A stretch of DNA of 64,000 nucleotides from Sinohyriopsis cumingii (lineage: Eukaryota > Mollusca > Bivalvia > Unionida > Unionidae). The stretch lies in the NCBI GenBank assembly GCA_028554795.2, contig CM068825.1, positions 156,479,053-156,543,052 on the forward strand. The letters are read 5' to 3'. Below, in pieces: positions 15,516 to 52,395 of the stretch. Position 1 is the first letter of the stretch, and each line of letters opens with the position of its first letter. The position numbers were made by a program, and so were the translations under genes. The notes beneath the pieces were generated by a model. The model did no database searches. It saw only the letters and a program-made list of their open reading frames with translations, and was not told where the DNA came from.

Positions 15516-15945
15516 AGTAGTAAATGGGGGCACCCTAGCCTCAATGGGAATTAGCATGACAGACAGGGTCCCGGCACTCTAGCCTCAATGGAAATTTAAC
15601 ATGGGGAATACAAGCCCGGCACTCTAGCCTCAAGGGGAATTGAACATGGGAAAAAGTCTTGGGCAACTCTAGCCTCAATGGGAATTACCATTACAGGACC
15701 CCATGGGACAATCTGGGGACTATGTAAATTTAACATGGGAATAGATTGTGGGTCTGTTGAGCGACAAAATGGAACAGGGTCATGACCCTATTTTAATAAG
15801 GTCCCGACCTGAGGGGTCTATGGAAAGGGAACAGGGGAGAGGGATAGAACACACACACACATATATTAAATAAAAAAAGGGATAGGCAATTGAAAGTCGA
15901 TCTCTTTTCGAGAAATGTGGGTGGCCCTGAAAAGGGCCTATGGTT
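15516..15945. repeat. Left terminal inverted repeat of copy 1
   Basis: Matches the reverse complement of about 32790-33218 over its length. It contains four imperfect internal repeats of a CTCTAGCCTCAATGGGAATT unit. The inner part carries the histone-type 3' end of the first accessory gene. Confidence 0.92.
15897..15940 (-). terminator. Histone-type 3' end signal 1
   Basis: On the minus strand 15938-15923 reads GGCCCTTTTCAGGGCC, a 6-bp stem with TTTC loop, followed by ACCCA and then the HDE-like box CTCGAAAAGAGATCGA. It begins 26 nt after the stop of the 194-aa gene. This is the arrangement of replication-dependent histone mRNA ends (SLBP site plus U7 site). Confidence 0.85.
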
Positions 15946-15964
15946 TCATCATCATCTTCTTCTT

Positions 15965-16549
15965 TTATTTCCTCCACTTCTGTAGCCATCTTCTAACTTT
16001 TGCCATTATTCCTGTCTTCTTCTTTATGTCTGATTCTGGCATCCAGTCAGGATGACCTATCGATCGGAATTTCTCCTGTATTCGTATCCAGTTATTGTTG
16101 AGTTTCTCAAAGCTTTCTTTTCTCTTTCTATTTTCTTCTTCTCTTCTTTCCTTAGTCCACTTTTCTTTGATGTTCTTTACCTCTTCCGTCATCACTTTCC
16201 TCATTACTTCTTCCGTTTTTGTCAGCTGGTCGAACCCCCATTTTACGTATCGCCACTCCGTCCAATTCAATATCATTTCTAAGAAGCACCTGACTTCGAT
16301 GACATTTTCAAGTGCTTCCTTTAAACTTCCCACTCTTACATAAAGCGGGTCAATCAATCCTCTCAATCTCTTTTCCTCTTCTTCCATCATTCCTTTTATT
16401 ATCTTCTTTGCTTCCTTCGGAGTATTAAAACAGTCAAGACACTTTTCTAACTTGAATTCTTTCTCTATCTTTTCCATGACAAATGTGACATCTACTATCC
16501 AATAATAAATACCTATCAAATGATTCAGTAACGCTGTTGCTACCACCAT
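15965..16549 (-). CDS. Accessory protein A, charged helical (194 aa)
   Basis: I do not recognise a family. The protein starts with a hydrophobic patch (ALLNHLIGIYYWIVDVTFVM), then is rich in Glu, Lys and Arg with a predicted coiled-coil stretch at about residues 125-165 (KEKWTKERREEENRKRKE). It is related to the 187-aa protein at 51667-52230 in copy 2, with shared GLI(D/N)P.YV.VG.LKEA and HPDWMPE motifs. The two are much less alike than the capsid genes of the same elements. The gene ends in a histone-type stem-loop and has a TATA box at 16601-16607 with the conserved accessory promoter motif just upstream. The frame is intact. Confidence 0.8.
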   Translation of the reverse strand: MVVATALLNHLIGIYYWIVDVTFVMEKIEKEFKLEKCLDCFNTPKEAKKIIKGMMEEEEKRLRGLIDPLYVRVGSLKEALENVIEVRCFLEMILNWTEWRYVKWGFDQLTKTEEVMRKVMTEEVKNIKEKWTKERREEENRKRKESFEKLNNNWIRIQEKFRSIGHPDWMPESDIKKKTGIMAKVRRWLQKWRK

Positions 16550-16596
16550 TTTCTTTGTCTTTATTCCGTGGAATGGGTTTTAATGGCTAACACTGT

Positions 16597-16705
16597 TAGC
16601 TTTATAGTTAAAGCGCGCAAGTGATGGAAAACAGCCCCTAAAACAAAATTGATATTACCTAGATTATCACTTAAAACGCGTGGACGTGAAGGAAAACATC
16701 CCATA
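16597..16705 (-). promoter_or_regulatory. Promoter of accessory gene A
   Basis: On the minus strand there is a CTATAAAG TATA box (about 16601-16608). Upstream lie two copies of the motif GGG(A)TGTTTTCC...CACGTCC(G)CGC (plus-strand 16611-16638 and 16675-16702) flanking a GATAATCTAGGTAATATC block (about 16649-16668). The same three blocks recur before the accessory genes of copy 2. Confidence 0.7.
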
Positions 16706-17000
16706 CTTTTCTCATTTCATATGATCTACTATCCACATACGTGAAGCAGCAATTAACAAACCCAAAATCTACTATTCACACACGCAAAACATTAAAATGA
16801 AACCCCAAATTTACTATCCACACACGCAAAGCATTAAAATTAAACCCAAAACTACTATTCACACAAACGTACGTGAGCGCTTACAAATAAACACACACAC
16901 ACACACACTATAAAAAAAAGAGTCAGTGTTTATATTCACACTACTCTATATACACACACATTGGCAAATCGATTACTATTTCTTTTCTAAAGGTTTGGGT
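16706..17000. other. Spacer between accessory units A and B
   Basis: No gene. Holds AC-rich repeats of an ACTATCCACACACGCAAAGCA type and a GAGTCAGTGTTTATATTCAC block that recurs at about 17433, 52548 and 53460, always just beyond an HDE-like box. The HDE-like box of signal 2 (AGAAAAGAAAT on the minus strand) lies at about 16978-16988. Confidence 0.6.
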
Positions 17001-17016
17001 AGCCCTGAAAAGGGCT
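17001..17016 (-). terminator. Histone-type 3' end signal 2 (orphan)
   Basis: Minus strand AGCCCTTTTCAGGGCT followed by ACCCA, with a purine-rich box about 12 nt beyond. In copy 2 the equivalent signal (52626-52641) follows an intact 126-aa gene. Here that gene is gone; only a short match to its 3' flank remains (CCTGGTTAATG at about 17037). Confidence 0.82.
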
Positions 17017-17160
17017 GTTTTTTAACTCCATGGCACCTGGTTAATGATGGCACCTTCCAGGCCTGGCACCACACACACACCTTCTTCCCCAGTCTTTTTT
17101 CACTCTTTTTTGGGGGAGAGCAGAGGCGGGATAAGTGGCTTCAGAAAACAAAATTGATCT
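17017..17160 (-). pseudogene. Remnant of deleted accessory gene B
   Basis: Between the orphan stem-loop and the next promoter module there is no room for the 126-aa gene seen at 52680-53060. The sequence just inside the stem-loop still resembles copy 2, so the coding region was lost by internal deletion. Confidence 0.55.
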
Positions 17161-17205
17161 TACCTAGATCATGACCAAACAAACGCACGGACCTAAAAGA
17201 AACAC
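17140..17205 (-). promoter_or_regulatory. Promoter module of lost gene B
   Basis: Carries the ATTGATCTTACCTAGATCAT block and an ACGCACGGACCTAAAAGAAA variant of the accessory motif. Both are also present at 53168-53230 upstream of gene B in copy 2. Confidence 0.6.
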
Positions 17206-17499
17206 TCACTCACTTTTTATACTACCCATCACTATTCTAAAAAAATTTATTAAACAAATAATATACTATCCACATACGCAAAGCAATCCAATCAAACCCC
17301 AAATCTACTCTCCCCACACGTCAAACAGCAAAAAAAAACCCCATCATTATTATCTACTATCCACACAAACATACATGAGCACTTACAAACACACAATCAT
17401 ATACACAAACACATGCACTCACACTATAAAAAAGAGTCAGTGTTTATATTCACACTGCTCTACCTACACACATACTATTTCTTTTCTAGAGTATTGGGT

Positions 17500-17515
17500 A
17501 GCCCTGAAAAGGGCT
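17500..17515 (-). terminator. Histone-type 3' end signal 3
   Basis: Minus strand AGCCCTTTTCAGGGCT followed by ACCCA and, about 12 nt on, CTAGAAAAGAAATA. It starts 16 nt after the stop of the 133-aa gene. Confidence 0.85.
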
Positions 17516-17531
17516 GTTTTTTTTTTGTTTG

Positions 17532-17933
17532 CTATGGCAATCTTTTAGTTTCTAAGAATGCGATGTCCTCTGACGATAGACTTTCTGACGATAGGTCTGC
17601 TTCTTCGGAAAGAGAAGAAGAACTCTTTGGTGTCGATACGACAATCGACAAAGCCTCTGTCAGGTTGAGGTTGCTGATGCTGCTGTTGCTGCTGTTGCTG
17701 CTCTCTCTCTGCTGTTTCTGAAGTCTGTACTTCTCTGTCCATTCTTCTTTCTCCCTGTTCACTTCTTCTCTGAAGAGCTCTTCTATCAGGTCTTCAGTGA
17801 CTTTTAGCATTCTCACATTCTCTATCTCTTCTGGCTTCGGTATCAGACTGTGTCTGACCCTGTGCAAATTCACGTAGGCTCCGTTTAGCTTAGCTAGTTT
17901 GGAGCACATCTTCGTAGGAGGATGAGTCGACAA
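17532..17933 (-). CDS. Accessory protein C (133 aa), unknown
   Basis: No family recognised. The N-terminal half contains hydrophobic and charged helices (PKPEEIENVRMLKVTEDLIE, then EEVNREKEEWTEKYRLQ). The second half is low-complexity Ser/Asn-rich and then acidic Ser-rich (SSLSEEADLSSESLSSED), which could be phosphorylated. It ends in a histone-type stem-loop and is preceded by the accessory promoter motif at 17971-17999. In copy 2 only its last codons survive (about 53580-53690), joined to the protease 3' end. Intact here; probably expressed in the same way as protein A. Confidence 0.72.
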   Translation of the reverse strand: MSTHPPTKMCSKLAKLNGAYVNLHRVRHSLIPKPEEIENVRMLKVTEDLIEELFREEVNREKEEWTEKYRLQKQQRESSNSSNSSISNLNLTEALSIVVSTPKSSSSLSEEADLSSESLSSEDIAFLETKRLP

Positions 17934-17954
17934 TGGATGGTTAGACTGGAGGCT

Positions 17955-18000
17955 AACACGGCTTTAAAGTCAAAGCGCGGACGTGAAGGAAAACATCCCT
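17955..18000 (-). promoter_or_regulatory. Promoter of accessory gene C
   Basis: Plus-strand GCGGACGTGAAGGAAAACAT followed by CCC at about 17977-17999, with a TATA-like CTTTAAAG at 17963. This is the best match to the shared accessory motif. Confidence 0.7.
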
Positions 18001-18146
18001 CCACGGTTTTCGAGCCGGAACGTTCAATGACTGCCATGAGAGGGATAGTAAGAAGTCAAAGAGCATGAATCAAGATTTCTATAGTCAAACAAACCACAAA
18101 GGCATTTTTTCAAAATACAACATTTTTTATTCACAATCACTTGACA
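18001..18146. other. Spacer; polyadenylation signal of protease gene
   Basis: Minus-strand AATAAA at 18126-18131, 16 nt after the protease stop. The protease gene thus has an ordinary poly(A) signal, unlike its accessory neighbours. Confidence 0.7.
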
Positions 18147-18800
18147 CTAACAAACAACTCTAACATTTTTAACAATAATCCAACAATATAACATCAAACA
18201 TTTTGTTTCAAATAACAAACATTTTTTCCAACTCACACATTTTTTTGGACAGGGCTGACAACGTTGTGAATGAAATTGTGATTTCCACTGTTGGAAGTCA
18301 TTAGGCCATTGATGGATACTACGTTTCCTAGCCTGAGACAAAAGATAAGCATAATGGTCACAAAACCATTGATCTACTTTCACATCGTTTCTAGAAGAAG
18401 AACGAGGATCAAAATGAGTCACTAAATGTTCTAAGGAATAACCCAGACTGCGATCATGCAGAAAATACACACAGTACTGTCCACACACCAAGGAATCTGT
18501 GCCTTGTAATTTCACATTATTGAATCGGGTGGTCTGAGCATTTCTTCTCATTAAGTCAATGATATCGTCTTCCAAAGGGGGCAATCCATACGAATCAAAA
18601 TATTCCACACATCCTTCTTGAGGAAAGTAGACGGCTACCAAGTGGGTTCCTGGGAGATGACTGTCGTCCGTGTTGATCACGTAAGCTTGATGGTCTTGAG
18701 GTTTGCGATGAGGGAGTTCATCTTTAACACAGACGACAGGATTCCAAGAAGCCGTGTACGAACTGTGGTTCAAAAGGTGATAAAGTTCCCAGGTATCCAT
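18147..18800 (-). CDS. PRO: Adenain-like cysteine protease (217 aa)
   Basis: Maturation protease of the adenovirus protease family, expected to cleave capsid precursors during assembly. The catalytic series is visible: His53 in GTH, Asp69 in EYFDSYG, Gln99 and Cys106 in QGTDSLVCGQYC. The family's GTHW is GTHL here, while copy 2 keeps the Trp. The usual domain length is about 190 aa; the extra C-terminal 35 residues (Cys/Lys-rich, then hydrophobic) are absent from copy 2, where a deletion removed that DNA. The start MDTWELY is conserved in both copies. The frame is intact. It lies next to the Cys/His gene with a 21-bp gap. Confidence 0.92.
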   Translation of the reverse strand: MDTWELYHLLNHSSYTASWNPVVCVKDELPHRKPQDHQAYVINTDDSHLPGTHLVAVYFPQEGCVEYFDSYGLPPLEDDIIDLMRRNAQTTRFNNVKLQGTDSLVCGQYCVYFLHDRSLGYSLEHLVTHFDPRSSSRNDVKVDQWFCDHYAYLLSQARKRSIHQWPNDFQQWKSQFHSQRCQPCPKKCVSWKKCLLFETKCLMLYCWIIVKNVRVVC

Positions 18801-18821
18801 TGATTTGTGTGGTTTTCTTCT

Positions 18822-19325
18822 TCACAGGTAATAATAAGTCATCAATTCGATCCTGACTTTTTGCTTGAAAATGTCTGACAAATAACCGTTTCTTCGCTTC
18901 GTCTCCCCACTCTGATTCAGGAGAGCTTCGATACGATGGATCTCTTGAGTGGTTAATGGTGGACAAGAATGTTCACGCAAGTCTTTATGCCACTGATGCA
19001 ACACGACTTCGTCCGAGATAAGACTCCAAGCTTCGTCCAGATACTCGTTCAATTTTTCTTCTTGACTCAGCATTAGGCATTTATCGTGTTGAATTTGACT
19101 GGGATGATCGTTTTGACATCCATAGCAATCTTTCTTGATCAATTCCGTCATTTTTTCGACCAAGAGTTTGACAAAGCAGGAGACTAAATGGGCTTCTTGT
19201 TCTGGCCATCTTGACTTCATCACGATAACTTCTTTGTCTTTGTCTTGAGATTCTTCTTCCCCGGTCTCCTCACATTCCATCTTCAAAGTTTCTCCACTAG
19301 GCAAAGAGGGATAACAGTCTTCCAT
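18822..19325 (-). CDS. Conserved Cys/His protein (167 aa)
   Basis: Unknown function. After an acidic N-terminus it has a helical region and a compact Cys/His cluster (CYGCQNDHPSQIQHDKC at about residues 68-84) that could bind zinc. The 162-aa copy 2 version (54269-54757) keeps every Cys and His of this cluster. The C-terminal half is charged and helical. It sits between protease and major capsid gene (5-bp gap to the latter), a position that suggests a role in virion assembly, but this is inference only. A fragment of the same gene is recognisable in the relic at about 10.4 kb. Intact. Confidence 0.82.
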   Translation of the reverse strand: MEDCYPSLPSGETLKMECEETGEEESQDKDKEVIVMKSRWPEQEAHLVSCFVKLLVEKMTELIKKDCYGCQNDHPSQIQHDKCLMLSQEEKLNEYLDEAWSLISDEVVLHQWHKDLREHSCPPLTTQEIHRIEALLNQSGETKRRNGYLSDIFKQKVRIELMTYYYL

Positions 19326-19330
19326 GGCTT

Positions 19331-20606
19331 CTAATAGTCTAGAATGACTTCTCTCAAACTGTTGATTTCTATGGTATTGTCAAATTCTGCATACAGGAGG
19401 ACGTTCACTGTGTGATCTGGACGTGGATTTGCAAACTGAAGCTCCACACAAATCTGACCCGATTTTATAGGGTGTAAATGTCCCTCGTCGCTGCCTTGGT
19501 CTGGAGTGAAATCAAAACCCCACAAAGCATAGCCTCCTGCATAATCGTCGTACGAAATACCGTGACTGGTGTTGGTTCCTAACTGTCCCAAAGGTGGGCT
19601 GAAAGGGTCGGGTACACAAGGTCTTGCCGTCGCGACTGACTTCGATCTTGGACACATTGAAATGTTGAAACTCAAAAGGATTTTGATCGTGGGTTCCGTT
19701 GAAGGCTGAATTCAAGACGATACCAACAATCAAACGCTTGGGTAACTGTCCTTGGAACAGATGATCTTTGATCATAGATCGCTGTCCAGCGGGAATGGTG
19801 AACGTTTTCACTTCTACGCGTCGTATGGGATACTTGGCGGTCGTTCTGCTCAACGTCTGACTGACGTCGTTTCCCACTTTAGGTAACACTTCCACACGAC
19901 GCACGTAAAGTCGGGCTTCTTGAATAATAGTTTTGTATTCATTTGCATGGGCCATCCGATGGAAAGCGGCACTGCTACGATTCAGTCCCAGACGGATATC
20001 CACCCCGTTCAGCAAATACTTTTCTTGTAACCACATGTCCAAATGCAAACTATCCATCAGTTCTAAACTTCGCCCTTGCAGAATTTTCTTACGACGGTCG
20101 TTAAACCCCACATTGTGAGGATTGTCATCTTCTGTCAGGACTGTGTCGCTAAACGTGGCTACACCTGCCGTGTCAGGTTTCCATACTACGCAAGCATCCA
20201 GATGAGTATTCTTGGCTTCTTTTCCGTACGTCAAGAGATTTCCCAGGTAGGCACGATATGGGTAAGTATACATGCTGCTGCTGACCAGTTTGTTATTCAA
20301 GTACAAGTCCACTTCGCTGAACAAGGAATGCTTGAAATTGTTGACAGGAGCTACTCTAGCAATGCCTCCTGGATTGGTGTTGTCCGTTTTGATCACTTTC
20401 ACTTTCAAATACAGGTAACTGCTATTCAGATCGATGTAATCTTCGGGTTGTCCTTTGATTTCAAACTCGATGGGAGCGGAATCGGTCAATGAGGAGACGG
20501 GATGAAATTCCACCCACTGGGATTCTTGCATGGTCATCATGGTGGGGGGCATGGCAAACAGATCAAGTTCCGACTTGGAACAGGCGCAAGACTCTCGGCG
20601 CATCAT
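19331..20606 (-). pseudogene. MCP: Major capsid protein, double jelly-roll, frameshifted
   Basis: Hexon-like major capsid protein of the Polinton/adintovirus type. The N-terminal part (WVEFHPVSSLTDSAPIEFEI, DYIDLNSSYLYLKVKV, VDLYLNNKLVSSS) is typical of this family, often labelled F54H12.2-like in invertebrate genomes. The main frame runs from 20606 to about 19590, then the C-terminal portion continues in another frame to the stop at 19331. Compared with copy 2, about 40-50 bp not divisible by three are missing near 19590-19600. The deletion lies in the second jelly roll, so no full capsid subunit can be made. Start MMRRESC matches copy 2. Confidence 0.9.
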
Positions 20607-20619
20607 TTTTTTCTCTTTC

Positions 20620-20802
20620 TCAATAATCGAAAACGTCTAAGTCTCGAACGGTTCTTCTTTTCCTTGCCTTTCTAGCTTTAGACGTGTGAAGTCTGGTGAA
20701 AGGGTGTTTTCTTCGTCGTCTCTTTCTGCCTTGTCCTTGCTGAATGCTTGACTCGGTAGCGTGCAGGGCATAAAAGGTCTTTGCCCGTTTGCAGCAAGAC
20801 AT
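20620..20802 (-). CDS. Small Arg/Lys-rich protein (60 aa), core-protein-like
   Basis: Very basic (GRKRRRRKHPFTRLHTSKARKARKRR) with a conserved end VRDLDVFDY. Copy 2 has the same coding stretch at about 56090-56220 without a clear ATG. Adenoviral core peptides (mu, VII) and their Polinton counterparts are similarly small and basic, so DNA condensation is plausible. The start is uncertain because about 20 bp differ between the copies here and the frame overlaps the end of the next gene. Confidence 0.5.
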   Translation of the reverse strand: MSCCKRAKTFYALHATESSIQQGQGRKRRRRKHPFTRLHTSKARKARKRRTVRDLDVFDY

Positions 20803-21022
20803 TTTTGCCTGCCCTCATGAAGGCTTCTTTAGGATTTTGTTTGTCGATGATGACATTTTGGAGAAATTCTTTGCCTTGTGTCAGTGCCGCATCTTTCAAG
20901 GCGTGCAATCCGCGTGTCACCATCGATTTCAACACCGGGGCCACCGAACGAAAGGCCGATTTTAACATATCTCCTAAACCGTGTCCTCGCTGTCGAGCAA
21001 TCCCTCGGTACACTGGATACAT
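20678..21022 (-). CDS. Minor capsid protein VI-like (114 aa)
   Basis: Starts MYPVYRGIARQRGHGLGDML followed by an amphipathic helix (about residues 18-50, SAFRSVAPVLKSMVTRG) and a second helical part. Position next to penton and hexon, size and the amphipathic N-terminal segment resemble adenovirus protein VI-type membrane-active minor capsid proteins; this is inference from layout, not from a strict motif. The first 85 residues are nearly identical in copy 2 (56218-56490). The C-termini differ because of a small indel near 20775. Confidence 0.62.
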   Translation of the reverse strand: MYPVYRGIARQRGHGLGDMLKSAFRSVAPVLKSMVTRGLHALKDAALTQGKEFLQNVIIDKQNPKEAFMRAGKNVLLQTGKDLLCPARYRVKHSARTRQKETTKKTPFHQTSHV

Positions 21023-21049
21023 GACTTACGAATCGTGAGAGAACCGTTT

Positions 21050-21957
21050 TCAAAAATGGAGTTTCACCGTGACTTTTCCTTTGGTGAATGGAATATTTTG
21101 TCCCAGATCACCTTTTATAGCAATGTTGACCGTGTCCAAATACGACTTGCTGACAGGCAAATAGTGAGGATGTACAAATTCGAGGTGAACGTGGTAAGTG
21201 TTTCCACGTTCCTCGTCAGTGACCGTGGCAGAATCCACTTTGAAAGGAATGACACGCAGTAACGGCACAGAGGTGTGTCCCACCACATTGTACTCCACCA
21301 CATCGGAGTACACAAACATCAAATTCAGTCCTTGGTTCAGTTCTACCGGGGCACGAAATAACTTGCTAAAAGACTCGTTGTCGTAAATGATTGGTAATTC
21401 GTTTTTCTTGAGCATGGCCTTTCTCATGTCCATGTCTCCGCCCAACATGTCAAACAATTCAGGACAAAATAAAATGGACACGATTTTACCCCCGTCAAAT
21501 TTCATCAAGAAGCGACGAGCTGCTTTGTGGTATTCCATGGTGACACTTTTTTGACACTTTCCAAAGCTTTCAGAAACACGACATTGAACCTGGAGGCTAT
21601 GGTGCTCACCAAATATTGACCACTGAAATAACAGCCTGGGGGAACCAACAAGTGATAGGTGGTGTACTTTTGATTTTTTGTGCCAGGGGTTTTCTTGTCA
21701 TATTTGCCATGGGTATCCAAGTACTGTTGCAATTGTTCGTCATGAACTTCCACATCAAAAAAGTTTTGATTGGGAAGGACATTGAGGACTTGAGTCGGGT
21801 GAATGATTTCTACTAAAGCCACTTCCCAATGGGTTTCGTGATCTAATGGGATGGTCTGAGGTAATTTGGCCGTGTAACAGCACAACGTGTTCTTGGGAAA
21901 CACCTCCATGGAACTGTCACTGGGTAAGGTTAAGTAAAATTAGTTTTGGTGACTCAT
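21050..21957 (-). pseudogene. mCP: Penton (minor capsid protein), two lesions
   Basis: Single jelly-roll penton of Polintons, which would occupy capsid vertices. The N-terminal part is read from 21957 (MSHxN start as in copy 2) to about 21545. Codon 6 is TAA where copy 2 has CAA. The C-terminal part (NELPIIYDNESFSKLFRAP to the stop at 21050) lies in the -1 frame relative to the first. The frame change falls at an A-run near 21547-21552 and the same offset exists in copy 2. The only ATG at the second segment's start (21538) is CTG in copy 2, so a separate start there is not conserved. Confidence 0.85.
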
Positions 21958-21984
21958 AATTCCAGAGTTCTGTGGCTGTCCGAG

Positions 21985-22136
21985 GGTTTACTGGACGTCA
22001 GAGGCGTGTCTCCGCCCAAAATAGGGTTGTTGTTGTTGTTATTGGAGTGGTGACTGACACTGGCACTGGACACAAGGTTCCCGTGGTTCCCGTTAGAAGA
22101 GAATTTCAGGGAGGGATTGGGAAGTAGGTAACCGAT
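21985..22136 (-). other. Conserved open extension after the membrane-protein stop
   Basis: The frame of the upstream 80-aa membrane protein stays open after its TGA (22137-22139) for about 58 codons, ending in a TGA that overlaps the penton ATG (ATGA). The content is Ser/Asn-rich (SSASVSHHSN, ILGGDTPLTSS). Copy 2 keeps both the TGA and the open extension, with several amino-acid differences and one in-frame length change. Confidence 0.5.
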
Positions 22137-22370
22137 TCAGCTGCTCAATAAAATGGTCCACAATTGTTTTACTCCTTGTTGCAAACTTAAATTGGCGATG
22201 GCTGCCCCGATGACACAATACACCACGAAGATTTGGTAGAAAAAGACGATTTGTGTTTTAGGCACACGTTCTCCACACCACACGCACAAGGGTTGTTTCT
22301 GCAAATCTTGCAGAGAAGAACTGGGTGAAGGAGTGGTAGAAGTAGTAGCTGAGTCTGTGTGAAAGGGCAT
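22137..22370 (-). CDS. Single-pass membrane protein (about 77 aa)
   Basis: Starts at MPFHTDS. A Ser/Thr/Pro-rich head is followed by LCVWCGERVPKTQ and a strongly hydrophobic segment (IVFFYQIFVVYCVIGAAIA) that should span a membrane. No family recognised. A TATA-like CTATAAAAAG lies 15-20 bp upstream inside the end of the integrase gene. It is nearly identical in copy 2, which argues for function. It may continue past its TGA (see the extension entry). Confidence 0.65.
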   Translation of the reverse strand: MPFHTDSATTSTTPSPSSSLQDLQKQPLCVWCGERVPKTQIVFFYQIFVVYCVIGAAIANLSLQQGVKQLWTILLSS

Positions 22371-22375
22371 GATGG

Positions 22376-23465
22376 TCACTTCTTTTTATAGTCGATGACT
22401 TGCGAAGCGTCGATCCAAGAATCAAAACTGGGTGGATATCCTTTCCAACGTACTTTGACTTCTTTGACACGTCGTTTATCCACTTTACGGGTTCTGCGTT
22501 CGAGAATGCTTTCGATGTCGTACACGTCGTCTTCTTTTTTGGTGACACGTTGTAACTCGGGTAAGTAAAACGTTCATGTCTTCCAATTTATAGACGGCAG
22601 GATGACGGTCATGCACTCGTTCAGTGACACGAAACAATTCGGTCTTCCAGTTATGTAAGTAACCTTTGTCGAAAGTGCATTTGGTTTTGCCAATGCGCAT
22701 CCAATCTCCTACGGCCAACACTCCACTGTTCTTCAGGACAGCCTCCGTCGGGGACGTACCAAATAGGCGATCAGACACCATCACTTCGTTCTCGGGAGTC
22801 ACCTCTTGTGGGGCACGTTTAATGCTTCGATGGTAAGATTGATTGTGCGCTTGCACCAGGTGTGGTAAGATGTCGATGTACTTCAGAGTGTGGTGATGCG
22901 TAAAATATTTCCACATGCGTTCTTTCAAAGTGCGTTGAAAACGTTCCACGATGCTGGCTTTGGTTTCGGGATTCTCGATGGTAAAAAAATGAATGTCACG
23001 TTTCTTTAATTCTTTTTGGAAAGCTTGGTTCAGAAATTCGGTGCCTTTGTCCGTTTGTCATCGAAGAGGGTGACTACCGCTTTGTTTCAACACTCTTTGC
23101 AGGGCTCGCACTAACTCGCTGCTGGATTTGGAAGTCAAGGGTACGACCCAGGCAAATTTGGAAAAGACGTCGATGAAACAAAACAAATATTTGTAGCCGC
23201 GATTGTAGCTGGCCAAATGAGAGACATCGGCTAAATCGGCTTGCCATTGATGATCGATGCCTTCCACTCGGGTGCGACTTCTGGAAAACTTGCGTCGAAT
23301 TGGTTTGTGTAAAGTGTAGGTAGCTTGTTCTTGTAACCATCGTTGCACTTGAGGTAAACGGAGACTTTTCAGTCGAATTTTGGCAGCACGATACAATTTT
23401 TGAACTCCTGCGTAACCTGCATGATGGGAGGGATCGTAGTAAATGCTGGCTAACACTTTTTCCAT
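22376..23465 (-). pseudogene. INT: Integrase with chromodomain, broken
   Basis: Retroviral-type DDE integrase that inserts the element and makes the 6-bp duplication. Asp is visible in HQWQADLADVSHL and in TDKGTEF, and Glu in ASIVERFQRTLKERM, about 35 residues after the second Asp. A C-terminal chromodomain (YDIESILERR, then WKGYPPSFDSWIDASQ) is complete here, whereas copy 2 has a stop inside it. Lesions: TGA at 23058-23060 where copy 2 has TGG, just before the second catalytic Asp, and a 20-bp deletion near 22569 between CGTTC direct repeats. Start MEKVLASIYYDP at 23465. Confidence 0.92.
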
Positions 23466-23479
23466 TTTGTGTTTGTGTG

Positions 23480-24064
23480 TTAATAAGACACCCACTCTTG
23501 GAAGATGCTACTCTTTTCCTCTTGGGGTGCTTTCTTGGATTGCAATGCTTTGCGTGTGCGACCGGCAATAGGTGTTGAAGAGGAGGAGGAGGATGTCTGA
23601 GCGGGGGATATCGGTTCTTGTTTCACTTCTGTCTTCACTTCTGTCTTCACTTTCTTTTTCTCTTGTGATGAAGAAGGGGTGGCCATCATCTTTTTAATCC
23701 ATCCAATTCTGGAGGTAGGTGGTGTTGTTAACTTGCGTACTTTTTCGGGTGGAGTTTGAAACCCTTCCTCTTCTTCTTTTTCTGTCTTGGTCACCGGTAG
23801 TGGTGGTACTGGTGACGGTGCTGGACTTTTCATCAAGGTCTTAAAATCTTTCAGAGTGGGTAGAGCTGTTTCGTCTAAAGCTTTCTGGTGAAAGAGTTGC
23901 AGTCGTTGCAAGAGTTGACCGTACTTTTGCGATTTTTCTGTTTCGGACAAATTTTGGCGATCCATCAAGGACTGCAATTCGTATTGAAATTGGGACATTT
24001 CGCTCAAATGGGGATTAGGAGGTAAATGCGGGGTGCTTTGTTCTTGCCAACGATGGTATTCCAT
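23480..24064 (-). CDS. Polinton protein of unknown role (194 aa)
   Basis: Helical N-terminal third with a leucine-rich stretch (LSETEKSQKYGQLLQRLQLF), then a Pro/Ser/Lys-rich, probably disordered middle with KKVKTEVKTEVKQEP, which contains a sumoylation-like VKQEP. The basic C-terminal region includes GRTRKALQSKK and ends FQEWVSY. Copy 2 has a 217-aa version (58978-59631) that differs mainly by Glu, Ser and Pro repeat lengths. It lies 14 bp upstream of integrase. No known domain. Intact in both elements. Confidence 0.75.
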   Translation of the reverse strand: MEYHRWQEQSTPHLPPNPHLSEMSQFQYELQSLMDRQNLSETEKSQKYGQLLQRLQLFHQKALDETALPTLKDFKTLMKSPAPSPVPPLPVTKTEKEEEEGFQTPPEKVRKLTTPPTSRIGWIKKMMATPSSSQEKKKVKTEVKTEVKQEPISPAQTSSSSSSTPIAGRTRKALQSKKAPQEEKSSIFQEWVSY

Positions 24065-24154
24065 CCATCGTTTGTAACCACTAAAGCTAGTTTTCGTCCT
24101 TCCATGGGGTTGTCAAGGGTCGATTCTGAGATCTTGGGACTTCAGAGGGCCTTT

Positions 24155-24574
24155 TTATCTTCCTCCCATCAGTCCTCCCAACATGGTTCCCAAGACTCCT
24201 TTCAGCAATGGGCCTAACAAGAGGGGTAAAATGCCTCCACGTTGGACCAACATCTTCTTCTTTTGACGAATGGGAATTTTCTTTTGAACCATTTGGCGAA
24301 GAACGTGACGATGTTTGCCTAAGCATTGTTTCTGGTGTATGGACAAAGGGATCGTACCTTTCAAGACGTTCAAACAACATTCGCACACAGTATCGATGAC
24401 CTCTTTGGAAGCTGATTGAATGAGTTTTTTTCGTAAGGGTGGAGAAGCTTTCGACAGGACAGATAACAAGTCTCCATGTTTGACTAAACGTGGTGGCAGT
24501 CCTTTCCTTTTCTTTCCTTGGGGTTGTTTAGAAGAGGGATGTTTTCTGGAGGGTGAATTTTTCAGGAGCACCAA
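24155..24574 (-). CDS. pX-like small virion protein (139 aa)
   Basis: The N-terminal third is basic. The core KEVIDTVCECCLNVLKGTIP is followed by closely spaced His/Lys (QKQCLGKHRHVLRQM, KKIPIRQKKKMLVQRGG), and the C-terminus is a hydrophobic Gly/Leu helix (ILPLLLGPLLKGVLGTMLGGL). Proteins of this plan are common in invertebrate Polintons and have been compared with adenovirus pX or membrane-lytic minor proteins; that link is tentative. The frame is open, but the conventional ATG is lost, leaving GTG at 24574; copy 2 has an ATG at the matching region. A TATA element GTATAAAAAAGG lies at 24605-24614. Confidence 0.7.
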   Translation of the reverse strand: MVLLKNSPSRKHPSSKQPQGKKRKGLPPRLVKHGDLLSVLSKASPPLRKKLIQSASKEVIDTVCECCLNVLKGTIPLSIHQKQCLGKHRHVLRQMVQKKIPIRQKKKMLVQRGGILPLLLGPLLKGVLGTMLGGLMGGR

Positions 24575-24604
24575 AACACTGATACCCCGACTTCGTCACA
24601 CACC

Positions 24605-24614
24605 TTTTTTATAC
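24605..24614 (-). promoter_or_regulatory. TATA element of pX-like gene
   Basis: Minus strand TATAAAAAAG, conserved at 60125-60134 in copy 2. Confidence 0.6.
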
Positions 24615-25567
24615 AGGAACGCGTCGCCACTGATCGTCTTTACGTCGTATCAACTTCAGGACAGGCATGACACGTCGTGCAGGGGTACGTAACGGACTAA
24701 ATCGAGCTAGTTCTTGCTTGGACAAATCCAGTAAACTTTGTAACATGCCCGATCTTTCTTGGACTTTGATTTTGGGAGAAGGTACTTTTTCAGCAGCAGC
24801 CACTGCCACTTAATTGGAGGGTCCTGCCACTGGCGAAGTTCTTGGGGTCATCAACGGAGAAGTTCTTGGTGTGACCAACGTCTCCAAGTACTCTTCAGTT
24901 CTTGGTGTCATCAACGGAGAAGTGGATGAACTTGAGGCTGCCGGAGACGCAGTCACCGCCGTGGTAGGTCGTGGTTTGCGAGTGTAAGGTTGCGTCCTGG
25001 CCGAAGTGCCTCTCTTGCGACTAGTTTTCTTCTGTGGACTTTTCTTTTTCTGGGGGCTTTTTCTCTGTTTCTTTTTCTGGGGGCCTCTTTTCTTTTGCCG
25101 GGGTGGTGTCTGGTAAGAGGAGGGTCCCGCCACTGGAGAAGTTCTTGGAGACACGGGTCTCCTTAGGGACCTGGTCTTTTTCTTCTTCTTGGAGCTTCGT
25201 TTGACTTTTTTCTTGGGGAGAAATTTGGGGACATTAGGATCCCATCTTAAGAGAGAGCGAATGATGACCCCTCCAAGAGTACCGCTCCCTCCAGGTTTCA
25301 AAATGATTTGTTTTATGGTTTGAGTGTCGATGCGGGGATCGGCCAGTTGGGTCAAAGCGACTTTGTTTCGATCAAAAAAGCGTTTGGTTTGATGAGGAAT
25401 CTGAATGATCCCTTGTAGTAATTGACGTGCCGTCCCCGTGAACCATCTAAGACTTCTCTGAGACTAGCTTCTAAGACACGAGCTCGTGTTTGTGGATTTT
25501 TTTCTCGACTGATGCCATACAAGGCACTAATCAGTTTGACGGGAAGATGCGACTGAAGGGACGTCAT
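24609..25567 (-). pseudogene. Highly basic Polinton protein, broken
   Basis: Related to the frame at 60129-61082 of copy 2. The N-terminal domain (MTSLQSHLPVKLISALYGIS, RARVLEASLREVL) is followed by a Gly-rich stretch and then long Lys/Arg/Ser/Pro repeats (KKKQRKSPQKKKSPQKK) typical of DNA-condensing proteins. The C-terminus is RTPARRVMPVLKLIRRK. Lesions here: loss of one base near 25447, and an in-frame TAA at about 24811 where copy 2 has TTA. A virion core protein is a reasonable guess; no domain proves it. Confidence 0.75.
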
Positions 25568-25636
25568 GTTCAAAATGTGTGTGAGACAGAAGAAAAGGGT
25601 CTGAGGTTTTTAATAGATTCTTTTTCTGGAATGAAG

Positions 25637-26365
25637 TTAAGTAGAGGACGGACACGTGTACAGGACAGACCCTCCGTCGTGGCACCAGTGGTGAAACAAG
25701 TGGGTACGAAATCGCAAATCATCGGGGCTCGTAGGTTTCAAATCGACAAGTAAATACACGTGTGGAGTTTGAGTGGCATCGTCGTACGCCTGCATCAGCC
25801 AAGGTGTCCCTAACAGTTTGGCTAAGACTTGCACTTGCGATTTATCTCGAGGGCTTTTAAACAAGACCACGCAATTCGCATTCAGACTGATGGTGCGATG
25901 GGCTTTACTTTGTTGAAACAAATTTTTAGTGATGTAAACGACACTGGCATTACGATGATGCCCTTTGCGCGTGAACCACAGTTTAATTTCTTCTTCGTCT
26001 TCTCCTAACATATCGTCAAAAATGACCAAATCGGTTTGACGGGAGTCAGAGACGATGCCGTCGTCTTCTTTAGGAATGCCTTCCACAAACACAATGGAAT
26101 CGACTTGACTTTCTCGCAAGAGACTGTACGCCGATTGCCACTCTTTGTAACACCACACGATGCGTTGAGGTGGACGATCGATCAAATGATGTTTATGTTC
26201 GATCAAACGTTTGACAAATTCGGTTTTGCCTGAACCGCTAGGTCCAGCAATGAGCATGTTAAAGGGATGGCGAAGATACAAAGCCTCCCAACTGGCACGA
26301 TCTAAGTGTTCGTCGATGACTTTGACAGTTGAGGAAGAGGGAGCGGAGACAGCAGAGGTAGCCAT
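25637..26365 (-). CDS. ATP: DNA-packaging ATPase, FtsK/HerA (A32-like) type (242 aa)
   Basis: Walker A GPSGSGKT at about residues 42-49, Walker B LVIFDDML at about 113-120, and a sensor-like stretch VVYITKNLFQQ. These are the marks of the genome-packaging ATPase of Polintons and related DNA viruses, which pumps DNA into the capsid. Length is in the family range. The frame is intact, unlike copy 2, which has a TAA in place of CAA. A TATA element lies 47 bp upstream of the ATG (26412-26419) and is conserved in copy 2. Confidence 0.92.
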   Translation of the reverse strand: MATSAVSAPSSSTVKVIDEHLDRASWEALYLRHPFNMLIAGPSGSGKTEFVKRLIEHKHHLIDRPPQRIVWCYKEWQSAYSLLRESQVDSIVFVEGIPKEDDGIVSDSRQTDLVIFDDMLGEDEEEIKLWFTRKGHHRNASVVYITKNLFQQSKAHRTISLNANCVVLFKSPRDKSQVQVLAKLLGTPWLMQAYDDATQTPHVYLLVDLKPTSPDDLRFRTHLFHHWCHDGGSVLYTCPSST

Positions 26366-26411
26366 AGTGTGAGGAATGTCACTTGTGACACGAAAACAAA
26401 CAAGACGAGAG

Positions 26412-26419
26412 TTTATATA
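26412..26419 (-). promoter_or_regulatory. TATA element of ATPase gene
   Basis: Minus strand GTATATAAAC. The same site is at 61926-61934 in copy 2. Confidence 0.65.
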
Positions 26420-26448
26420 CTTTTTTCAGGACACGTTTATTGAATGTT

Positions 26449-26742
26449 TTAAACATGAATACGAAAGACAAAAATACATAAAAGCCAAAGCCTTAAGTAC
26501 AACGATAAAAGGCACATGATAACCATCAACGTGGAATAAAAACAAGTGTCTGTAAAACATGTTTTGGGTAATGTTCTGACCAGTTCTATAGACGGTAAGG
26601 TCACACAAGTGTCCTCCAGAAAGGGTCTTTCAGGGATGTCCACGACCGTCCTGTCCTGGGTGACGGGTTCTTCTGGTACTGTCACTAACACAGGTTGAAA
26701 AGTCGCAAGGCTCACAATCGCATTCCACTTCAGAAGCCCCAA
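26449..26742 (-). CDS. Short membrane protein, start lost (up to 97 aa)
   Basis: The C-terminal segment STLMVIMCLLSLYLRLWLLC is a clear membrane span, preceded by an acidic/proline-rich stretch (TVPEEPVTQD, PERPFLEDTC). Copy 2 shares it up to about 62222 (26702 here), where homology between the elements stops, so the N-terminus is not comparable. No ATG is available in frame before an upstream stop. An AATAAA lies at 26436-26441, just past the stop. Function unknown. Confidence 0.5.
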   Translation of the reverse strand: MGLLKWNAIVSLATFQPVLVTVPEEPVTQDRTVVDIPERPFLEDTCVTLPSIELVRTLPKTCFTDTCFYSTLMVIMCLLSLYLRLWLLCIFVFRIHV

Positions 26743-26826
26743 ACTTGAATTGTGCCTGTCTGAATTTGTTTTGTGTTCCTCTGAAAGTATTAATCTTGTT
26801 CACTTGGTCTTGGTAGTCACAATGAA

Positions 26827-29800
26827 CTATCGATCTTGCCTAGGGTTCCTTTTTATATACAGACCAATACCGGCGTGTCCATACAGCAGGGTGAAATGAT
26901 TGGGAAGACGCACTCGCTTCTGGTACACGATTTGATAGACTTTTTCCAAGGGTCGACTGACGATGTGGTGAGTGGGTAAACGTACAATCTTGTTCGGTTG
27001 ATAGGTGGTCACTTGAAAGTGTTCATCTTCTCCAGATTGCAAGCCTTCTTTCAATACCCCAAAGTTGACCACACGACTGGTACGATAATTCAGAGTCAAT
27101 CCTTTCACTTTACACTTCGTGTGCACTTCTTCTTGTGGGTCCCGGTATTCGTAGCCGTAATGTTTTGGACCGCCACTGACGAAACTTAGAATCTTGTCGT
27201 CGGGATGCTCGTCTGTCCAGGCTCCTAAACGGTCTCCTTCGATGTCAGGGTGCAGTTGACTCGGGTGATCGATGTAAATGCAACTGTCCGTGTCAAAGTA
27301 CAGGACGCGTTCCCCTAATAGTTCTAAAGCTTCGTATAATTTTAAGCGAGCATAAGCTGTCACGTAAGCCGCAATGATGACATTTCCAAAAGAAGGATCG
27401 TCTTGTACAAAGTCCAGATCTTCTGCGTAATAGACCAAGATCAAATCCTCGCGAACGACGTCCACGTGTTTCATGAATTTGGTTTTGTCGTGAATCATGT
27501 GAAAGTAGCGGGAAGGTTCTGTCAAATGCTCCGTCTTGGGTAAACACGGACGTTGTGCCATTTTACCCCACAAGCAATTTAACATGCTTTTGGCAAACGA
27601 TCGCCTGCCTTCGTTTTTCTCGATGTGATCTAAAGCAATGCCTTCTTGTGCCCAGTATTTCTCTTTGAATGTATTTTGGTCTTCGGGAGTGTGACACCAG
27701 GAAGGATAGCCACTGGCTTCTTGTTTCAGTTTCAAAAAGGCACCCACGTAGTCTGCGAAAATGCCTTTCTGAGTGGGGTCACCCTTGTGGTATTGTTGTG
27801 TCTTGGGAAAGTGATAAATTTCGTACACTTCTAACAGTTAATATCCCATGTCCAGAGCTTTGAACAATTCTACGCTGACCCAGGTTCCCGTCAAAGCCCG
27901 TTCTTCCTGGGTCTGCTGACAAGGCTGATCTTGGTTGCATGTTTCGGCACAAGTACGGCACAAAGGAAACATCAGTTTGCCTTGGCAATGGTGAGGTAAG
28001 ACGGGATGGTACAAGTCCTTGGGAGGCAAAACATTGCACTTGATCAAGCCTTCGTATTGTCGAATGTTTTTCAGGTCGATGTGTTCCGTGAACAATTGTG
28101 GGTGCCCTGCAGGAAAGCGACAATATTTGCACACATAGGGATACAGCGAACACACGTCCAAGTATTTGATTCCTTCTCCTTTCTCTTCGTCGGCTTGGTA
28201 CAGCAAACAGATGGCATTGGTCCTTCCTCCGTACAAACTATCCCTCGGGTTCAACGGGTCCATGAACTGGTAACTTTCTACGAGGCGTTTAAACTCGGGA
28301 TCGGTTTTCAAACGGTGATCGTATTCGTGTTCCCACATTTCCACCACTTGGTATCCTTCCTGTTCTAACTTTAGGCGTCGCTGACAAGTGGCCTTGTACA
28401 AGTCTTCCATGGTTCGTTGTAAAAACTGATTTTTAGTGCCACGGTCAGGGTAACAGACGGGACATCCGTGAAATAAGCAACCGTTAAACTCGTACACGAT
28501 CTTGGGGTTTTCTAAGTCCCAGCTATCGACCGAAGGCGTTCCATTGGTCTTTTCGCCTCCTCCGTTGCGGGCATGCTGAATCCATTTGTCTTCCTTGTCG
28601 CACAAGTAATGTAACCAGCGTAGGGCTTTGACCGAGTATTGACGTTTGACATAGTTGGTCGTTTGAGGACTGATAACAGCCACGGTGTTTTCAGGCATGA
28701 ATCGTTGCCGGTACACTAAGGAACACGCTTTGGCAATGGTGCAAGCTTCTTTCAAAGGATCGACCCCTCCGTGTTCCATGAACAGTTCTCGAAATTTTCC
28801 ACAGCATCGTCGTAAAATGTCCACGTCGGAACGACAATACTTTAACATTTCTTCCTGAAAGTCGAAAGGGTACTAGGCGTGAGCCTGGTACCAAGCGTAG
28901 AAAGATTCTCGTTGTTCGGTACGCATGTTGTCAGGGTTGTAATAGTGAGCCTCAGGTAAATGGGGTAGAACGGCATGTTGATTGGCTTCCGTATTGAAAA
29001 AGTGTGGAAAGTACCCTTTAGCCATTTCTGTCATTCCAAACGTTTTAGGCATTCGGCTCAATGGCATGGCCAAGTAACTCGTCGAATCTTTAAACTGTGC
29101 TTGTCCCACTTGCATGAAAATGATTTTGGCTCCGTTCAAAGTGACTTTAGGACACTCGGTGCCTTGTTCCGTATGGTGTCTCAAAAGAAACTGTCCATCG
29201 TATCCGGAGAAATTGTGAGCCATCACCGTGGCATGACGATGACAATCTCCGTAACGTTCGATGTTCTCTTGGCTCCACGTCTTGTCGATGGGATCTAAGA
29301 CCCATTGTGCAAAATCGGCTAACGTGTTCGGTCCTCGAAAGATGTTTTCACGCCCTCCGGGAATCTTACTGCAGTGAGGGCAATGACTGAAGATAGGTTC
29401 CTGAATGCACTTCTCGCACGCTCGATGAGACACGCAGAAATCAGGAATGTGAATAGCGGTCTCTTGCATGTATTCGAAATCAAAAAAGATGAAATTGACT
29501 TTCTTCTTGTGACCGTCCTCTTTCTCTGGTGGGGGTTGGTATTTTTGCACGTAGTATTCGTGTTCCAAGTCCACGATGTGGTGACAAATGTGACATTTTT
29601 TCTTTCCTGAACATACGTGTGCCTTGGCACTGTTGGTACGTATGCCTTGTCCACACGTAGGGCACAACCTCAGCAGTTGACAAGCACATTTCTGCTGTGA
29701 ACCTTGCGTCTTCAAATGTTGTTGGTAACAAGCAGGGCTGACAAACGTGCGCAGACAAGTTGAACAATGCACTGGTCCTTCGCTCAGACAATGTGGAGAG

Positions 29801-30891
29801 GCCAAACATCCTGAGCATTTCGATCCGCAATGCTTGTGTTGCTCTCGATTTTTATAGCCATAGTCACATTTCTCACAGTAATAGCTGTATCCTAGGAATG
29901 CAGTGATACTGGTAATGGTATCGAAATGGTCATCGTGATGATAAAGGTGAATGTATTTTCCATCCTTAAAGTCTTTCCCTCGAAACAACAGAGGCCCGCG
30001 CACTTCTTGAGGGTGCACTTTCAAGGTGTAGAATGGAGCTAGGGCATCTTGCAAATTTTGCATTTCATGAATGCCACAGGGTTTGTCTTTGGGCAAGCCA
30101 GCTTGTTGTAACAGGAGTTCTGCTTCGTTTCGTTGTTTGGCTCGGTCCGATTGTCGAATAGTTTTCCAGGCTCTTTTTCATTCTACCGTGTCGTTCTTGT
30201 TGACATAGGTTCGTCCCACCACGATGGCCCTGGCTAAACACATCTGGTCTTGACAATTGTGAATTTGGACGAGACTTGTTTTGGTGCTGCGAAGCTCGTC
30301 CACCAATAACATCTTTTTGCGTCCAGTCCCTTGAGGAGGAGAGACGTGGGTCATGTCCAGAGTGGCTTTACCATCGGTGATGTCAAACTGGTCATTAGAT
30401 TGTTGTACGTGTTGATTTTTGTCCATGACTTTGGAAGCAGTCAATTCTGCACGGGTGCTAAACTCGATCCAAACAGGGGATTTCAAACCGTCGTGTTGTA
30501 TGGAAAGTCTCAAGCGATCGTCTTCTTTGGGTTGACATTGTCGCTTGAGTGTGGTGAGTAAAGAATCCCACACCCCGGTGGTGAACCCTTCTGCTTTCTC
30601 TAACGGTACTTCGGACTTGAAATCTTTAAACTTCACTGTGTATTTGTAAGCCGTGGTTCTGAATTTTCTAGAGGAGCGCTTTTCGGTCTCTCGAATGGAA
30701 TAGTACTTTTCAGGGTTAACTAAGGGTGGTGAACTTTCTTTAGAGGGTTCGGATTCTGGTTCACTCATGTCCTCTTCAAAATCACTGGCATGAATTTGTG
30801 CCAAGACTTCAGCTCTGGTACGAGGCGATAGATCACCTTTCTGCCTCTTACTTTCTTCTTCTTTCTTTTCAAATGAATTGGATCGTTTCAT
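26827..30891 (-). pseudogene. POLB: Protein-primed DNA polymerase B, three in-frame stops
   Basis: Replicative polymerase of Polintons, about 1355 codons in one continuous frame. An N-terminal domain (residues 1-237, ending ARAIVVGRTYV) is followed by a Cys-rich block (YYCEKCDYGYKN, CPTCGQ, CHICHH). The exonuclease motifs are FDFEY (about 470), HNFSGYD (about 570) and YCRSDVD (about 687). The polymerase motifs are DVCSLYP (about 910), KSMLNCLWGK (about 1100) and DTDS (about 1200), then KGLTLNYRTSR. The frame is broken only by TGA at 30178-30180, TAG at 28873-28875 and TAA at 27838-27840; there is no frameshift. No PolB is visible in copy 2 within the window. It is transcribed divergently from the zinc-knuckle gene. 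Confidence 0.95.
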
Positions 30892-30924
30892 CTTGAGTGA
30901 AAAAAGTCAAATGACTAAAATTTA

Positions 30925-30995
30925 AACACCATGGACTAATTTATAGTCCTAGCAGACCAGTGTATATAAAGGGTATGTGTCTTGTCCTTTCACTA
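30925..30995. promoter_or_regulatory. Divergent promoter, PolB and zinc-knuckle genes
   Basis: A minus-strand TATA (CTATAAATTAG at about 30937-30947) lies about 50 bp before the PolB ATG. A plus-strand TATA (GTATATAAAGG at 30962-30972) lies about 70 bp before the zinc-knuckle ATG. Confidence 0.65.
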
Positions 30996-31042
30996 TTCAT
31001 TTCACTCTCAAACCGAGCACAACGACGGAAGAGACTACCCAG

Positions 31043-31518
31043 ATGGAACGTTTCATAAGAGCGTTGCGAGGGGTCATTAGAAAATTTTCTTCAGACCAGC
31101 CGACGGAGTACTCTCCTTCCTTTCGAGATAAAATTCAAGATACTTACTATATCTGTCAGAAGAAAGAGCATTGGTCTTCAGAGTGTCCAGACCGTCAAAA
31201 AAGAAAAACAGGGGCTGGAAAGACAAAAGTCAAGATACCTGTTATTATTGTCAAGAAAAAGGACATTGGTCTCCAGATTGCCCAAAAAAGAAACAAGAGG
31301 AGTCAGAAGAACAGAGGGATTCTTCAGAGGAAGAAGAGGAGGAAGATAGCAGAGAGGTGAAGAAAAAGAAACAGGAGAAGAAAAGAAGAAGGGAAGAAAT
31401 TGAGGAGGAAGAGGAGGAAAAGACTGTGACGGTGAAGAAATTTAAAAAAACAGAGAGACTAAACAGTGAGGCAGAAGAAGTGAATGTACTTTTTAAAGTG
31501 CTCTGTTGTGAATTGTGA
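31043..31518 (+). pseudogene. CCHC zinc-knuckle protein, frameshifted
   Basis: One of only two candidate plus-strand genes of the element. From ATG 31043 it encodes MERFIRALRGVIRKF, then a decayed knuckle (YYICQKKEHWSSEC, first Cys replaced by Tyr). After a change of frame between about 31195 and 31230 comes a perfect CX2CX4HX4C knuckle (CYYCQEKGHWSPDC). The two knuckles sit in a tandem duplicated segment (QDT.Y.CQ.K.HWS..C). The C-terminal part is a long acidic/basic low-complexity tail (EEEEEEDSREVKKKKQEKKR). Retroviral Gag and many nucleic-acid-binding proteins use such knuckles. It is followed by AATAAA at 31544-31549. Confidence 0.72.
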
Positions 31519-31625
31519 ATTGGATTGTAACTATTTATAAAAGAATAAATTAGGTATAAATAGGTAAGTGTCTTTGAGTTTTGATTTTAAATAAGACGCT
31601 ACACTCACGCACTCATATACATGTT

Positions 31626-32291: not shown

Positions 32292-32334
32292 GTTGAATCA
32301 CTGTCTCGCATCGATTGACTGCACACAGGAGGTA

Positions 32335-32520
32335 GCGAATCTATATAGACCACGTGATGTCACAGACTGTTCTCTTCGGATTGGATGCGAGCTGACTGAA
32401 TTTTGTAATCAATGTTTGGTTCGGATTGGATGCGAGCTGACTGAATTTTGTAACCAGTGTTTGGATTGGTCAATAAACTCAATCGGTTTAAATCCTTCTT
32501 CTACCTATAAATAAGCGCAG
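32335..32520. promoter_or_regulatory. Divergent promoter with ATTGG repeats
   Basis: Two tandem copies (about 42 bp) of a CGGATTGGATGCGAGCTGAC unit, then GGATTGGTCAATAAAC. ATTGG is an inverted CCAAT box, so three occur within 90 bp. A minus-strand TATA (32341-32348, gene D) and a plus-strand CTATAAATAAGC (about 32504-32515) flank them. Confidence 0.7.
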
Positions 32521-32557
32521 TTCACTGCATTGATTTACCTATTCTCGTCGCCTCAGA

Positions 32558-32779: not shown

Positions 32780-32789
32780 GGGCATATAT

Positions 32790-51625: not shown

Positions 51626-51666
51626 CTTCTTCTTCTTCTAACTCCTTAACTTCTTCCACCATCCTC

Positions 51667-52230: not shown

Positions 52231-52274
52231 CTTCTTGTTTGCTTATTCCGTAGAATGGGCTCCAATGGCAAACA

Positions 52275-52395
52275 CTGTTAGTTTTATCCTTAAAGCGCGG
52301 ACGTGATTGAAAACATCCCCCAAGACATAAAATTGATATTACCTAGATCATGACCAAACAACGCGCGGACGTGAAGGAAAACATCCCCCACTTTT
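52275..52395 (-). promoter_or_regulatory. Promoter of accessory gene A, copy 2
   Basis: Two copies of the motif (about 52291-52318 and 52361-52388, the second reading GCGGACGTGAAGGAAAACAT then CCCCC) flank ATTGATATTACCTAGATCAT. This is the same layout as in copy 1. The TATA position reads GATAAAAC. Confidence 0.7.

Follow-up and report, generated by a model that had tools for sequence, protein, structure and literature searches.

Hairpins of the histone 3'-end type follow small terminal genes of a Polinton lineage in the bivalve Sinohyriopsis cumingii

The stretch analysed here, referred to as the window, comprises 64,000 nucleotides (nt) of Sinohyriopsis cumingii (assembly GCA_028554795.2, contig CM068825.1, positions 156,479,053 to 156,543,052 of the forward strand). 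It contains two diverged copies of a Polinton/Maverick element, identified by terminal inverted repeats (TIRs), a target-site duplication, a family B DNA polymerase (PolB) and an rve integrase. Copy 1 has TIRs of about 434 nt, 96% identical in a 434-column alignment, and is flanked on both sides by the 6-nt target-site duplication ATCACC. A Pfam search assigned its polymerase to PF03175 (E 1e-17) and found the integrase in copy 2 (E 1.9e-14) and, just below the cut-off, in copy 1 (E 5.4e-7). An A32-type ATPase passes its cut-off (copy 2 match, E 2.9e-8) and is also present in copy 1, an adenovirus-type protease (PF00770) falls below its own at E 0.078, and the best hint of a capsid is a coat protein at E 0.52. 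Small genes near the element ends, named A to E here, are followed by hairpins of the type that closes histone mRNAs, and these hairpins are the subject of the present work.

Eight such hairpins, each reading GGCCCTTTTCAGGGCC or AGCCCTTTTCAGGGCT, lie in the window, all of them inside the two Polinton copies (Table 1). A pattern scan allowing up to two mismatches returned eight matches, compared to a mean of 0.25 in shuffled sequence; none of 100 shuffles reached eight, which rules out a chance origin. The first-pass annotation had counted eight sites over two elements, and all of them are present; no further 16-mer in the whole window obeys the strict histone stem-loop rule. Comparison with the Rfam model of the histone stem-loop, suggested together with that count, matched every site to Histone3 (RF00032) with E values from 2.5e-8 to 1.7e-4 (cmscan, 4227 Rfam families), and four sites passed the gathering score of 34 bits. 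All eight fold into a hairpin, with z between -1.6 and -3.2. Standard pairs fill 48 of the 48 pair cells over the eight sites, as they do in only 4 of 500 shuffles. The second pair is G-C throughout and the outer pair is G-C in four sites and A-U in four, a change on both sides of the stem that probably reflects a single event.

Downstream of the stem, the tail reads exactly ACCCA at six of the eight sites, as the first-pass annotation had described, but AGCCA at 32799 and ACCCC at 52626. At 15923 it extends to ACCCACA, whose fifth and seventh letters coincide with the positions reported for histone mRNA cleavage, 5 nt past the stem at ACCCA (major) and 7 nt past it at ACCCACA (minor; PMC6303110). 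The purine box that had been noted further downstream is present at all eight sites with the consensus GAAAWGARA, although it starts 13 nt past the hairpin in seven cases and 14 nt in one, instead of about 12 nt. Human U7 small nuclear RNA (snRNA) carries the motif CUCUUUU close to its 5' end. Its complement, AAAAGAG, is found in three of the boxes, with AAAAGAA in four and AAATGAG in one, a comparison made with a human U7 that may differ from that of the host.

Seven of the hairpins can be assigned to a gene, always in the sense orientation and 16 to 54 nt past the stop codon. The narrower range of 16 to 26 nt annotated at the left end of copy 1 holds for two of its three sites but not for 17001, which lacks an intact gene, since comparison of the copies shows that copy 1 has no counterpart of the copy 2 gene at 52680 to 53060; the nearest stops here close frames of just 25 and 40 codons. 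In the gene C remnant of copy 2, the stop closes the same KRLP C-terminus as in gene C of copy 1. The gene D frame of copy 1 departs from that of its relatives near the 3' end and crosses the hairpin. These relatives mostly end just past a GLRQLK-type stretch, which the window has in another frame; that frame closes with a TAA, 25 nt ahead of the hairpin.

This arrangement bears on whether the hairpins might work as DNA, in replication, packaging, TIR recognition or recombination, with a superficial likeness to histone signals. Sites 15923 and 32799 are indeed mirror copies at the inner TIR edges of copy 1, with 51597 as their left-end equivalent in copy 2, so that three of the eight hairpins border TIRs. 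However, the remaining five are found beside other genes, at a distance from the TIRs, all eight are in the sense of the adjoining gene, and the conserved tail and box are asymmetric and would be needless for a DNA palindrome. We consider this explanation very unlikely.

The three orthologous pairs of sites allow the two copies to be compared position by position. The stem-loops are identical at 48 of 48 positions, against 523 of 711 (74%) in their flanks (Fisher p 7e-7, neighbouring positions not being independent), and therefore appear to be under continued constraint. Identity is also complete in the tail (15/15), and reaches 20/24 in the spacer and 28/30 in the downstream box. Such constraint speaks against an unused relic, in which the 3' end of a captured host histone gene would have been copied along and duplicated. 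Capture from a host histone gene would be a natural origin for the signal and duplication is evident from the blocks common to the surroundings of genes A, B and C, yet no histone remnant was detected in six frames with 12 histone words (best match 6 of 9 residues). As a functional explanation the relic is highly improbable; as an account of origin alone, capture is compatible with histone-type signals in current use. The earlier remark that no histone gene is present agrees with this word scan and with a Pfam scan of 30 proteins, genes A to E included, in which no histone family appeared.

Table 1. Features of the two Polinton copies (window positions; aa, amino acids)
Feature	Positions	Strand	Remarks
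Polinton/Maverick copy 1	15516..33218		complete; 17,703 nt; TIRs 15516-15949 and 32788-33218
Polinton copy 2	51295..64000		left end approximate; truncated by window end; first 12.7 kb present
Gene A, copy 1	15965..16549	-	194 aa; TATAAA 57 nt ahead of ATG
Stem-loop, gene A copy 1	15923..15938	-	inner edge of left TIR; RF00032 40.1 bits; 26 nt past stop
Downstream box, gene A copy 1	15901..15909	-	GAAAAGAGA; histone downstream element-like, 13 nt past stem-loop
Stem-loop, gene B copy 1	17001..17016	-	gene mostly deleted; RF00032 31.1 bits, below gathering
Downstream box, gene B site copy 1	16979..16987	-	GAAAAGAAA
Gene C, copy 1	17532..17933	-	133 aa from TTG; ATG at 17907
Stem-loop, gene C copy 1	17500..17515	-	RF00032 33.0 bits, below gathering; 16 nt past stop
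Downstream box, gene C copy 1	17478..17486	-	GAAAAGAAA
Contrast core-cluster gene	18147..18800	-	adjoins stem-loop genes; AATAAA 15 nt past stop; no stem-loop
Gene D, open frame	31626..32291	-	runs through stem-loop; TATATA 56 nt ahead of ATG
Stem-loop, gene D	31698..31713	-	RF00032 39.2 bits; family-type TAA 25 nt upstream
Downstream box, gene D	31676..31684	-	GAAAAGAGA
Gene E	32558..32779	+	73 aa; Arg-rich (12 Arg, isoelectric point 10.8); TATAAA 52 nt ahead of ATG; single copy
Stem-loop, gene E	32799..32814	+	inner edge of right TIR; RF00032 34.9 bits; 19 nt past stop
Downstream box, gene E	32828..32836	+	GAAAAGAGA
Gene A, copy 2	51667..52230	-	187 aa; 60% identical to copy 1 gene A
Stem-loop, gene A copy 2	51597..51612	-	RF00032 38.7 bits; 54 nt past stop
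Downstream box, gene A copy 2	51575..51583	-	GAAATGAGA
Gene B, copy 2	52680..53060	-	126 aa; TATAAA 68 nt ahead of ATG
Stem-loop, gene B copy 2	52626..52641	-	RF00032 29.8 bits, below gathering; 38 nt past stop
Downstream box, gene B copy 2	52603..52611	-	GAAAAGAAA; 14 nt spacing
Stem-loop, gene C remnant copy 2	53541..53556	-	RF00032 31.0 bits, below gathering; 22 nt past stop
Downstream box, gene C remnant copy 2	53519..53527	-	GAAAAGAAA

Relatives in a protein database were sought for PolB and for genes A and D; those of gene A were scored among the 8000 candidates that had the most words in common with the query. Gene A has 13 relatives and gene D 18, their contigs ranging from 0.6 to 2.3 kb in length. 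One protein of each family (P0133 for A, P0142 for D) runs past the usual C-terminus and so seems to translate its own 3' untranslated region. As judged from the protein sequence, the end of P0133 is compatible with all 16 hairpin letters. For P0142 the compatible letters number 15 of 16 in the hairpin and 38 of 43 over site D, a stretch that takes in the downstream box with its spacing unchanged (next best register, 29). Since the remaining 29 proteins already reach 11 to 14 of the 16 hairpin letters, a value of 15 is weak when taken alone. The two proteins are compatible with an echo of the signal on other contigs. The idea that the short contigs of gene A relatives are transcripts was rejected, because P0133 and P0142 pass the hairpin and the contigs of gene D are up to 2.3 kb long. 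Least probable of all is that the stem-loop RNAs serve as SLBP decoys, or disturb host histone mRNA, and are not ends of coding mRNAs: several good histone-type sites per element would suit a decoy, but the sites end protein genes, relatives show A and D to be conserved, and a decoy would not require the downstream box.

The exact stem-loop with its tail was absent from the viral contigs and from the prokaryote genome contigs, and the general histone stem-loop pattern matched five stretches of the viral contigs, all GGCCCTTATCAGGACC, none of which reached the RF00032 gathering score and which we judged unrelated. PolB relatives in the viral contigs amounted to at least 599 stretches, of which 291 were confirmed and the best 80 kept; a single-sequence PolB query of the same contigs gave no relative. 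One of these best 80 loci (L063) showed the relaxed hairpin pattern, without the ACCCA tail. This survey says little on animal Polintons, given that identity to these loci does not exceed 43% and extends over part of PolB. Genes A, D and E had no relatives in the viral contigs, and gene A had none in the genome contigs.

At E <= 0.001, the protein database contains 739 relatives of the PolB piece. Among the 120 of these that were listed, the closest by identity is P0003, encoded on an 854-nt contig and 88% identical across 49% of the query; the top-scoring one with an organism name comes from the ribbon worm Tubulanus polymorphus (47%), and many further organism-named relatives are animals. 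Between the two copies the core is 89.6% identical (18249-26703 versus 53691-62220), compared to 73.6% in the gene A region and 74-84% in matching stretches of the end genes. Ends and core look as if they had separate histories, through recombination or a faster change of the ends.

As for the encoded proteins, gene A is predicted to be all-helical with one long helix, from a structure model with a mean predicted local distance difference test score of 80. The model had no fold match at E <= 0.001 in the PDB or among viral models, and two likenesses were dropped as generic: Dps/ferritin (query template modelling (TM) score of about 0.2) and a small helix bundle (E >= 0.1, target TM <= 0.70). 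Gene D begins with an acidic-hydrophobic segment, has a basic stretch of the PKRKRPSR type and looks by eye like a nuclear regulator. A search of six frames of both elements for LXCXE gave seven matches, none in genes A to E and two in core open reading frames (ORFs; LFCPE near 21472 and 56940).

Upstream, a TATA-type box lies 52-68 nt ahead of the ATG in five of the six stem-loop genes tested, against neither of two core ORFs; one of these boxes is TTTAAA and one TATATA, and none precedes gene A of copy 2. Among 13 core ORFs tested, none is followed by a stem-loop; AATAAA or ATTAAA occurs less than 400 nt past the stop in four of them, and nine lack both hexamers over that distance. Several blocks recur around genes A, B and C. 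A 23-nt block, GAGTCAGTGTTTATATTCACACT, is found with at most one mismatch at plus-strand positions 16920, 17434, 52546 and 53460. In each copy it lies downstream of the gene B and C stem-loops and upstream of genes A and B. Its gene strand includes a TATAAA, and the block may act as a promoter or terminator module. A second block (0-3 mismatches; 16649, 17154, 52333 and 53175) carries CTAGGTAAGAT or CTAGGTAATAT on the gene strand, which resembles a 5' splice site in front of genes A and B. For a histone-type mRNA, a spliced leader would be unusual. A third, near GCGCGGACGTGAAGGAAAACATCCC, precedes genes A, B and C at 16613, 16678, 17975, 52295, 52363 and 53135 (0-4 mismatches), and a match with four mismatches is found outside both elements at 9571.

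Taken globally, the sequence, structure, spacing, orientation, stop proximity and conservation of the sites support their reading as histone-type 3'-end signals on non-histone Polinton genes. We consider it very likely that this Polinton lineage carries such signals on its small genes at either end, and likely that these genes use the host SLBP/U7 machinery of histone 3'-end processing. With metazoan replication-dependent histone mRNAs (RF00032) the sites share a 6-bp stem, a UUUC loop, the G-C second pair, an ACCCA-type tail, a purine box at 13-14 nt, a short distance to the stop and TATA-type boxes before most genes. They differ in that no histone is encoded, half of the sites have an A-U outer pair and the carrier is mobile and virus-like.

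A number of observations weigh against this interpretation. The four sites below the gathering score are those with the A-U outer pair; shuffles fold equally well in 13 of 200 cases for 17001 and 12 of 200 for 17500; and covariation amounts to one pair, a number that 387 of 500 shuffles reach. The boxes could pair with U7, a complementarity judged against the human sequence, and the conserved box of about 9-10 nt is shorter than the U7 duplex of about 15 nt given in a review (PMC7614891). P0133 has no recognisable downstream box. The contrast between core and terminal genes is thin, with a hexamer in just four of 13 core ORFs. Poly(A)-like hexamers also lie near some stem-loops (ATTAAA before 52626, AATAAA 51 nt after 51597) and 122-248 nt past three of them, as also occurs in some human histone genes (PMC9756948). 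Finally, several genes are damaged in both copies, which may therefore be silent.

For histone mRNAs, SLBP attaches to the stem-loop, U7 forms base pairs with the element further downstream and CPSF73 cuts (PMC7614891, PMC9756948), although MBLAC1 has been argued to be the cutting enzyme in place of CPSF73 (PMC6303110). SLBP rises before S phase and promotes processing, export, translation and stability (PMC7614891, PMC9756948). By analogy, the pre-mRNAs of the terminal Polinton genes are likely bound by host SLBP and by the U7 small nuclear ribonucleoprotein, with a box that could pair with U7. They would be cut about 5 nt past the stem and, after export, translated as short mRNAs that lack poly(A). 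At least one core gene carries an ordinary poly(A) signal instead. It is plausible that these transcripts are linked to S phase or to cells rich in SLBP, for instance oocytes and early embryos, and gating to S phase or the early embryo is our first guess at the purpose for the element.

In iridoviruses and mimivirus the 3' ends of mRNAs are also marked by a hairpin; these viruses rely on virus-coded transcription systems and other hairpins, whereas the signal described here resembles the host nuclear histone signal with its downstream box. The elements share with known Polintons/Mavericks and adintoviruses the TIRs, 6-nt duplication, PolB, rve, A32-type ATPase and sub-threshold adenovirus-type protease, and differ from them in the apparent histone-type 3' ends of terminal genes. 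A paper on adintoviruses, which gives an OTU-like domain on PolB and a chromodomain on the integrase as their markers, has in its text no occurrence of stem-loop or polyadenyl and two of histone, one passage concerning a histone-like gene of adomaviruses (PMC11071296). The titles and abstract beginnings retrieved from a literature collection that leaves out most subscription journals contain no report of histone-type 3' ends in Polintons, Mavericks or adintoviruses, in line with what the first-pass annotation had stated, and a 2018 abstract calls histone mRNA the sole known metazoan mRNA with such ends.

Judging from these data, it seems reasonably likely that an animal Polinton lineage has shifted up to five distinct terminal accessory genes onto the histone mRNA pathway, that their expression is confined to settings of SLBP and U7 activity (S phase, oocyte, early embryo), and that these are the first non-histone animal protein genes to end in this way. 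If so, the histone 3'-end signal would be portable to the non-histone genes of a mobile element, suggesting how a Polinton times its accessory genes to DNA replication. The transcripts would also be invisible to poly(A)-selected RNA-seq, which may explain why they have been overlooked.

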